Source of the DNA: Cristatella mucedo | Lineage: Eukaryota; Bryozoa; Phylactolaemata; Cristatellidae | Reading direction: 5' to 3' | Assembly (NCBI GenBank): GCA_009760855.2 | Contig: WPIO01000001.1 | Location: 8,802,501 to 8,866,500 of the forward strand | DNA: 64,000 nucleotides | Shown here: in pieces, positions 13,453 through 36,314 of the stretch | Position numbering within the stretch: the stretch's first letter is position 1 | Layout of the letters: each line of letters starts with the position of its first letter | Notes under the pieces: model-generated | Told to the model about the DNA's origin: nothing | Database searches by the model: none | The model's input: only the letters and a program-made list of their open reading frames with translations | Made by a program: the position numbers and the translations under genes

Positions 13453-16400
13453 TCAATCAGGATGGCCATTGAGCGATAGGCTGCGACTCCGAACTGCTGC
13501 ATACACAACAGCCACAACCAAGACCAGTCCACCGATGATGGCCGGCCACCTGCTCGTACTGAGCTGTTGCTGCTGAAACACAGTGGTGGCTGTCAGTGGT
13601 GGCTGTTGGTCTGCAATACCTGCAAATGCAACAGCTATTGCAGGCGGACCTGAATCGCCTGACAGCTTTGTCTCGTCAGGCGTAACACTTTCAGCAGCAA
13701 GGCTACAGGCAGCATGGGCTAAGACTGTGCCACTTTCGGCAGCTAGTGAATATATGTGAGCATCGCGTAATGTGTGACCCTCTGTTGGCTCCACACCATA
13801 ATGTTCTGCACAAGGGCTTAAGACAGGTGGCGGCAGTAATGTGGCAACACCACATGCAGATGATGAGGTGGTGGCTCCAGATGAATGCTGCCGATCAACC
13901 AGCACTGATTCTATTGCCACAGCACACGCTGCCAGACTAGTTGAAGACTGTGCAGGCAATTCGCAAAGGAAACAACGTTCGGATGCTTCCGATTCAAACG
14001 TCGGCACCTCTGTGTCTAAATGCCCACTGGTCTGTAATCCCTCGCTAATGGCTCCAGCTGACGACTCAAGTGGCATACCAATACCATGAGCCACCACACA
14101 TGCCCTAATGGGTGCAGCCTGGAAACCAGCCTCAGGACAGCAGGTATCTCCAAGTATTTCGTTAGCAAGAAGCACTGAGGCACCAGCTGAGGAGGTACCG
14201 AGTTCCCCAGTGGTGGCAACGCCAGCTGCATTGCTGCTGCCGCTGCTCAGCTCGCCACACTCTGAACCATCACACGCCGACGATAAATTCGAGCTTGCTG
14301 GAGCAGTCACTGCTACTACTGACATGGCCGGCTGCGAGTTTAGTGAGATTTGGCACGTCTTGCTATCTGAGCCGTCGAAGCTAGCATCTGACTCGAATAA
14401 CATCGCAGAGCCGTTTAACCAATCAGCGTCAGCAAGCTGGTCTCTAACAACTTCGAGGTGGCGGTGTGTGAGCTCGTCTTCAAACGGCTGCAGATTGCTG
14501 TCAGCTATGCCACTGACTGGAATGGTCTTGGGGCATGGTAGCTTTTGGTGATAGAAGGCGGGACAAGATACATCACTGTCAATGTGTCTACATCCGCTAC
14601 CTCTGTTCACGAAGTGGGCACCACGGCTACTTCCATCGCCGGTATCGGTAGAGCAAGCAGTCCCACAAGTGTCACTAGCAGGTGTGGGCTTGCCGTGAAC
14701 TACACTGCTGCCGGCAGCGATGGTAGCATTAAGTGGCAGCCGTTTGCAAATGCAGGCCACGGTCTCGCCATCGGTGACAGTTTTATTTGCTCTTGCCTCT
14801 AGTGATACAGTAGAGCCCTCGGCATGCCTCGGCAGACATGCCGGAACTTCCTCAGATTCTAAAGAAGAGTACGATGCCACCGGAGGACAACCACAGGCGC
14901 ACTCGAACTGACTGAGCAAAGGCCAGTCCCAAGTCAAACTGTTCTCACCGGAGCAAGTGCTGCTGCCATCGTGTGCTTTATCCTCTGTGTGATCCCAGCT
15001 AGCAAACGGCCCCAGCCTTTGCAGGGCGATGGCATAGTCTTCTGACACCGGAGCAACCTCGTGAATAGCTTCAGCTTTCCCGAAGGCGGTGGGCACGATG
15101 CCAGAACCATGAACAGCAACGAGTGGCAAGTTGATACGTTCTACTTCATCGGCTTGCAAATGCTCGCCCCTTGTCTCACTTGTGCAAGCAGGAAGGATTA
15201 CCAATTGCTCGGACAGTGTTTTTTCAGCTACGGCACTGCAGATGCTGGCAGTGCCATCTGCTTCCAGGGGCGCACGACTAGCACGAGAAACCGGTGCATC
15301 CTTCTGTGTTGGTGGTGGTAGAGGCAAGCTTTGGACGAGTTCATTAGATGATGCACAAATCTGGGTAGTCACAGAACCAGACAACTTGCAAGGTGCTGAG
15401 GCCACTGGCTCGACACGCTTGAATAGCACGTCGTGCCTCATCAAAACGTCCATCGATCGCCTACCTCTGCTGGATCTCGATTCCGTGCTGACTGACCTGA
15501 TGACAGAGGGTTGGCTGATTGGGTTTCCTGAGGCAGCAGCGACCTTGGGATGGCTGGTGGAATCCCACGTGCCCATATCTGACTTGTCAAGCTTAATGGC
15601 TGCATCAGAAAGAACAGATTCGGATAATAGCGATCGCCTGTTTCTTTCCAGCACAGCACTGCTGACATCCTTGTTGGTGGCAGTGCTGCTGCTGCTGATG
15701 CTGCCTGTTGGTGGCTGCCCCGTCAACGGCAGGGTTGCCTTTTTATTATACTTTGCAGAAGAGTCGTGGCTGCCATGAGAGGCAAGTGAGCTCGAAATGT
15801 CATCTGCAGTAGCAGCTACATCTGATCTGGCATCCCGATCTGCTGACACCGCAGCCGGGGATACAGTGCTCGAACCTGCTCTGGCCATCTGACAAGGGTC
15901 TGACATCGAAGGCAGCTGGCGATTAGAGCCCACGGCAGAGACACCTGTCACTGCAAGCCTCACCGCATGTGCGTCCACAGCAGCAGCACCTGCAGGCTGC
16001 AAACCCGAAGATGCAGCCTTGGTAACAACAACACCACAGCCATGCAGATCGCGCATGCTTCCGAAAGCGGATGGGCTGAGCTCGCTGAGCGGCAGGCTAC
16101 TGTCAGCTTCGCTGTCCCAATCACTACCAAACGAAGAGAGTCGCAAGTCGCGCACACTGCCGAAAGAGGATGGTGCCAGCTGTGGCAGACTGGCCGAAAG
16201 TGGTGCTTTCAGCCGTGTAGACTGCTCGTGCACAAGCATGCGGCATGTCAAGGGGCTGGACCCAGAATGCTCGGACAGTGAATCGTCACTGATAGCTTCC
16301 TGCAGCATGCTGGCATACTGGCTGTACAGCTGGTCGTTAGATGGTGAGTGACAAGCTGCCATTGCAGTAGTCCCCGTTGCTGCATTATCAGGAAATTCCA

Positions 16401-36314: not shown

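Follow-up and report, generated by a model that had tools for sequence, protein, structure and literature searches.

Bcl-rambo (BCL2L13) reportedly carries a unique C-terminal extension, which the title of a 2001 paper by Kataoka is said to announce. According to passages of PMC9800997, human BCL2L13 has 485 residues, and its BHNo part is rich in Glu and Ser and contains an LIR, WQQI, at 276-279. The same passages place the C-terminal helix of the mammalian protein in the mitochondrial outer membrane, its BH and BHNo parts being cytosolic, name LC3/GABARAP, the ULK1 complex, ANT, VDAC and ceramide synthases as partners, and report mitochondrial fragmentation via the BH part, promotion of mitophagy and no binding to the 13 other Bcl-2 proteins tested (PMC9800997). 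In extracts of PMC10887287, fish BCL2L13 also has 485 residues, is encoded by six exons and has its BHNo part at 202-459.

Outside vertebrates, the BCL2L13 branch includes the coral AmBcl-RAMBO, for which parts of PMC4715348 describe a predicted C-terminal TM and a mitochondrial association; expressed in mammalian cells, it did not greatly reduce viability (PMC4715348). The coral protein is also mentioned in an extract of PMC8998228, which calls Bcl-rambo unrelated to other Bcl-2 proteins. In a model that we made of a mammalian BCL2L13, helices occupy residues 11-208, residues 208-460 are unstructured and a last helix spans 461-484. A Foldseek search with this model returned BAK and Bcl-xL first, with a probability of 1.00 and a best E of 0.003 (none at or below 0.001).

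Here we analyzed a window of 64,000 nucleotides (the whole stretch of DNA under study) from the bryozoan Cristatella mucedo, taken from contig C111 of a 572-Mb genome in 688 contigs. The minus-strand locus at 36314-13453 is best read, from its sequence, as a BCL2L13 (Bcl-rambo) orthologue. As in vertebrate BCL2L13, the predicted product has a Bcl-2 head in the order BH4-BH3-BH1-BH2 with exons of 36 and 48 codons, then a long segment after GGW and a single C-terminal anchor with basic flanks. In contrast to the vertebrate segment, the linker is roughly fourfold longer and contains Cys and little Glu (5.5% against 17.4%), and it has no detectable BHNo similarity and no significant LIR. The coral AmBcl-RAMBO is likened to this gene by description only, as a non-vertebrate BCL2L13.

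Gene model on the minus strand

The longest frame of the window (16689-13453, minus strand) has 1,078 codons, and the runner-up has 282. Upstream of the last exon, five exons on the same strand make up the Bcl-2 part (Table 1). The original prediction was of seven exons in consistent phase; six of them, all on the minus strand, are supported, whereas for the seventh, of 38 nt, 15 small exons would suit the gap from exon 1 to the next, 108-nt exon, and none is convincing. A pseudogene was considered and rejected, all six supported exons being open.

Table 1. Predicted and candidate features of the locus, in window coordinates
Feature	Position	Strand	Remarks
Exon 1, 209 nt	36106..36314	-	ATG at 36314, the sole in-frame ATG of the exon; BH4-like segment
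Candidate 38-nt exon	34229..34266	-	Restores phase and gives 1,324 residues; one of 15 phase-fitting candidates
108-nt exon (36 codons), helical	29972..30079	-	Acceptor 99.0th, donor 97.9th percentile
75-nt exon, first half of BH3	29480..29554	-	First of 13 phase-fitting candidates by splice score and also by profile gain
182-nt exon, other half of BH3, then BH1 up to STGWNS	25257..25438	-	Phase compatible with both neighbours
144-nt exon (48 codons), BH2, ending at GGW	23455..23598	-	Pfam Bcl-2 alone E 4e-4
Candidate 25-nt exon, KDVVMLVG after GGW	20741..20765	-	Unproven; top of 16 by profile, not by splice score
Last exon, with about 1,030 linker codons, then tail anchor and stop	13453..16643	-	1,062 open codons; start at 16671 possible instead
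Tail anchor, residues 1032-1052 of the last-exon frame	13486..13548	-	Kyte-Doolittle 2.34

Splice sites were ranked as percentiles among the sites of the locus (acceptor 16643 among AG sites). The donor of exon 1 (CAG/GTGGGT) stands at the 99.5th percentile. Two bases are left over at the end of this exon where the 108-nt exon calls for one, so that the phase can be explained only by a small exon in between, a different donor or a base error. The candidate 38-nt exon is at the top of the 15 candidates neither by splice score nor by profile.

The 75-nt exon had been listed mechanically among the exon candidates before it was recognised as the BH3 exon. With it, the joined exons score 27.1 bits against a mammalian BCL2L13 profile, compared to 21.7 bits without, and the BH3 segment is completed across its junction with the 182-nt exon (LRAL/GDKM). 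Both splice sites of the 182-nt exon, which carries GWN, are weak (acceptor 84.8th, donor 61.1th percentile). The predicted spacing of 52 residues from GWN to GGW was obtained, but it rests on this weak donor; the next one (80th percentile) adds 4 residues to give 56, at 26.6 instead of 27.1 bits.

Two starts are possible for the last exon: 16671, in phase 0, whose acceptor stands at the 91st percentile, and 16643, with an acceptor at the 99.7th. The latter calls for one more exon, its length being 1 mod 3, such as the 25-nt candidate, which among 16 candidates raises the profile score to 32.2 bits compared to 28.9 when the GGW and last exons are joined directly. Within the 6.8-kb intron that precedes the last exon, the minus-strand stretch 19037-19346 is open and exon-like. 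Taken as 19346-19094 (or -19037), it has the top codon score among candidates entered in phase 0 and left in phase 1; tried as the exon after GGW, it was rejected, giving no gain with the BCL2L13 profile. The predicted length of 1,324 residues is reproduced exactly by exons of 209+38+108+75+182+144+3219 nt including the stop, which takes an unconfirmed 38-nt exon such as 34266-34229 and the start at 16671. Under every variant of the model, the product has about 1,300-1,325 residues.

Similarity of the head to BCL2L13

Joined, four exons matched the Pfam Bcl-2 family (PF00452) over positions 1-100 of the 100-position model, with an E of 6.7e-10 and 39.9 bits against a curated cut-off of 31.4; leaving out the 75-nt exon gave an E of 7.7e-9 and positions 8-100. 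No single exon frame reached the cut-off, and the unspliced GGW frame alone obtained 21.3 bits. The BH-type motifs were said to follow the family order, and we found segments in that order which we take to be BH4-like, BH3, BH1 (STGWNS) and BH2.

We searched the 2,095 frames of the window with a mammalian BCL2L13 profile built from 15 proteins. The sole match below E 1 was the GGW exon, with an E of 5.6e-4. Sub-profile 148-200 placed this exon first (E 9e-6), and sub-profile 8-40 placed exon 1 third of 1537, with an E of 0.99 that is not significant alone. With sub-profiles 41-76, 77-112 and 100-152, the frames of the corresponding exons appeared only at ranks 317 of 1261, 230 of 1368 and 506 of 1672. 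Only the GGW exon is thus significant alone, and the other exons hold by their order, phase, splice sites and joint score. Aligned with 26 mammalian proteins by hhalign, the head gave a probability of 94 and 54 ungapped columns across BH1-BH2 at 28% identity; the score of 51.9 compares to a maximum of 23.3 among 200 shuffles.

Exon lengths agree as well. When 119 listed mammalian entries were compared to P0001, the part missing from 18 of them coincided exactly with residues 153-200 (48 codons, running from after GWNK to GGW), and that missing from 16 with residues 41-76 (36 codons). We take these missing blocks to be skipped exons of mammalian BCL2L13 isoforms. The window has a 144-nt exon running from after GWNS to GGW, its left limit depending on the weak upstream donor, and a 108-nt exon in second position, the same two lengths; the limits of both had been fixed before the comparison with mammalian lengths was made. 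By eye, two other Bcl-2 frames of the same genome (L002 and L003) also reach GGW followed by a possible GT donor. Taken together, the mammalian profile, the comparison within the genome (below) and the exon lengths make the predicted homology to BCL2L13, and an orthologous relationship, well supported at the level of sequence.

Searching a protein collection with the window protein gave no homologue at E <= 0.01 among 7,991 candidates scored; words from serine runs probably swamped the search. With the head region stripped of the serine runs of exon 1, none was found at E <= 10 among 3,678 candidates, proteins of about 423-1,346 residues. Swamping in the one case and the limits of size and region in the other weaken these negative results. 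A mammalian BCL2L13 query found 903 proteins in the same collection, and the named ones among its best 120 were mammals. No solved structure matched the head significantly by sequence; the top row (E 0.034) is an unrelated designed protein.

The last exon and its predicted linker

The prediction that the expansion comes almost entirely from one exon agrees with what we observed. After acceptor 16643, the last exon runs for 1,062 codons before a stop, which at this composition would happen by chance with a probability of about 1e-19; the other five frames hold 17-61 stops. Cut into nine blocks of 354 bases, the exon shows three-base periodicities of 1.7-5.5, compared to 0.2-2.3 in 19 of 20 intron blocks. 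Two of the nine (1.7 and 2.2) lie inside the intron range, and the exceptional intron block (12.4) holds an AGC repeat. The last exon has a single match across the 572-Mb genome. An origin of the linker as repeats or a mobile element was rejected, given this single match, no second copy in the window and, within the last exon, a lone tandem array of 26 bases.

Between GGW and its C-terminus, the predicted protein has about 1,070 residues: the 1,062 of the last exon and another 8 or 9 from the junction, which is not settled exactly. The same distance in mammals is 239-322, with a median of 267, for the 102 of 120 listed entries that have GGW. The linker is made up of 16.6% Ser, 12.6% Ala, 5.5% Glu and 3.2% Cys, and residues 201-459 of P0001 of 17.4% Glu, 13.9% Ser and 6.9% Ala, with no Cys. 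The last exon was absent from the matches of the mammalian BHNo and anchor sub-profiles, and no Pfam domain exceeded its cut-off in the linker. Compared to four mammalian segments within 200-300, which is the LIR region, the linker showed similarity at the level of shuffles (P 0.65-0.99). A 13-residue stretch of the window that by eye resembles the mammalian SLPVSLGPESWQQI was therefore not counted as evidence for an LIR. The last exon contains seven LIR-like [WFY]xx[LIV] cores, about the number estimated by chance for its 38 aromatic residues.

A single-sequence model of the last exon, a weak test, left 1,035 of 1,062 residues below pLDDT 50, and only the anchor helix reached 70 or more. Residue makeup leans to disorder (57% disorder-promoting, 27% order-promoting); by the charge-hydropathy rule, the linker is not classed as unfolded (H 0.48 against a boundary of 0.43). 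The exon ends, as predicted, in a tail anchor, its only strongly hydrophobic segment (the next best has a Kyte-Doolittle value of 1.33). By manual count, the anchor is preceded by R and followed by R-S-R, with a tail of 12 residues. Its sequence has no similarity to the mammalian anchor sub-profile.

The original prediction also held that such a tether between fold and membrane is not a usual Bcl-2 design. This was overstated, as BCL2L13 proteins are already known to have a long BHNo segment separating the fold from the anchor, but the size is unusual, at about 1,040 residues compared to about 260. What is new is the size and the changed makeup of the segment before the anchor. We know of no longer linker in the Bcl-2 family. 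In the texts searched, we recognised no report of a BCL2L13 of this size, a result of little weight since in part of these searches nearly none of the texts contained the term.

The predicted protein shares three parts, head, linker and anchor, with mammalian BCL2L13. We estimate at roughly three in four (0.75) the probability that the locus encodes a BCL2L13 orthologue working as a mitochondrial receptor on a long tether. By analogy to mammals, the anchor would sit in the mitochondrial outer membrane and leave head and linker exposed to the cytosol. At about 1,040 residues, the linker would correspond to the mammalian BHNo and serve as a mostly unstructured tether and a strip for docking. Head and tether would recruit partners, leading to mitochondrial fragmentation and mitophagy, and the greater length would mainly widen the reach of the head and provide space for regulatory sites. 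Most likely, the protein is a receptor like the mammalian one with its arm extended. The role in mitophagy and fission is borrowed from mammals; that the arm is functional and this orthologue active in mitophagy we infer. Since mammalian cells remained largely viable with the coral protein, a killing activity should not be assumed.

If transcripts confirm the model, a distant animal would have kept the plan of head, tether and anchor and two exon blocks, and the tether would differ fourfold in length and no longer be recognisable by its sequence. It could then be asked whether BCL2L13 needs the length or sequence of its tether, or only head, anchor and short motifs.

An unlikely variant gives the length a purpose of its own. 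In this lineage, the cytosolic arm of about 1,040 residues would carry lineage-specific docking sites and would let the head act at a distance on other organelles or on the phagophore, beyond the reach of the vertebrate arm of about 260 residues.

We also considered that BCL2L13 is of ordinary size here, internal splicing removing much of the last exon so that the long linker is absent or a minor isoform. Nine frame-preserving pairs of donor and acceptor with fair scores lie within the last exon, eight of which would remove 345-2,703 nt, and shorter isoforms are therefore possible. However, the whole exon is open, the three-base signal is kept in its later blocks (3.9-5.5), and it has a lower density of strong acceptors than the introns of the gene (0.63 against 1.11 per kb), with donors equal in frequency. 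We regard this explanation as quite improbable. An expansion of the linker is supported at the level of the gene, and the full-length linker is likely to be part of the mature predicted protein.

Very improbably, the last exon is part of a separate gene, one for a tail-anchored protein rich in serine, and the final BCL2L13 exon lies elsewhere. Its lack of similarity to the mammalian BHNo or anchor and the inexact junction after GGW would suit such a gene, whereas it lies on the same strand and is the next clear coding exon after GGW, its anchor sits where the family has one, and its serine-rich composition is like that of BHNo.

Other Bcl-2 proteins and neighbouring sequences

BAK and Bcl-xL share with the window gene the Bcl-2 core and similarity across BH1-BH2, and score lower against it than BCL2L13 does. 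Both have a short step between fold and anchor. Local scores against the window gene were 108 for BCL2L13 (P0001) and 86 for human BAK, 69 for Bcl-xL, 51 for BAX, 45 for BOK and 37 for Bcl-2. Local z-scores are close (13.3 for BCL2L13, 11.8 for BAK). Global scores were 101.5 for BCL2L13 and 38 (BAK) or less for the others.

Six-frame Pfam Bcl-2 matches in the genome number nine, on contigs C665, C539, C479, C66 (two), C387, C52, C442 and C343; the window gene is missing among them. By eye, some look like Bcl-2/Bcl-xL, BAK or BAX. Eight of the nine were compared; L005-L007 hold a partial domain and L003 contains a stop. Within this genome, residues 100-200 of mammalian BCL2L13 scored 99 with the window gene and 21-71 with the eight other Bcl-2 exons, and the window gene scored 28-64 with the same eight.

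That the gene is another Bcl-2 member, for example BAK-like, which gained a long linker independently, appears remote: BAK chains are the best Bcl-2 matches among solved structures, if weakly (E 0.06-0.09), and the local score of BAK comes nearest, but the global scores, the lower scores of the genome's other Bcl-2 exons (some BAK-like by eye) with mammalian BCL2L13, and the HETK start, GWN instead of NWGR and exons of 36 and 48 codons, which are the BCL2L13 pattern, all argue against it.

Elsewhere in the genome (C666:953211-953514, L019), 306 aligned bases copy the GWN exon and its intron flanks (window 25504-25207) at 91.5% identity, next to a LINE-like repeat. In the exon, 175 of 182 columns are identical and five are indels, which marks it as a dead copy of a single exon. 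The intron between the 75-nt and GWN exons holds a LINE-type reverse transcriptase on the plus strand (27206-28063; RVT_1, E 1.1e-15 and 2e-7). Rfam gave nothing within the window. Long AT, TG and AGC microsatellites lie in introns of the gene (32882-33004, 26619-26737 and 19886-19947), and other parts of the window contain long CT/GA tracts. Exons of an EFCAB6-like axonemal EF-hand protein lie directly upstream of the gene, also on the minus strand (45552-61003); of these, 60641-61003, 48130-48849 and 45552-46049 align to EFCAB6 residues of about 410-492, 1154-1209 and 1346-1392.
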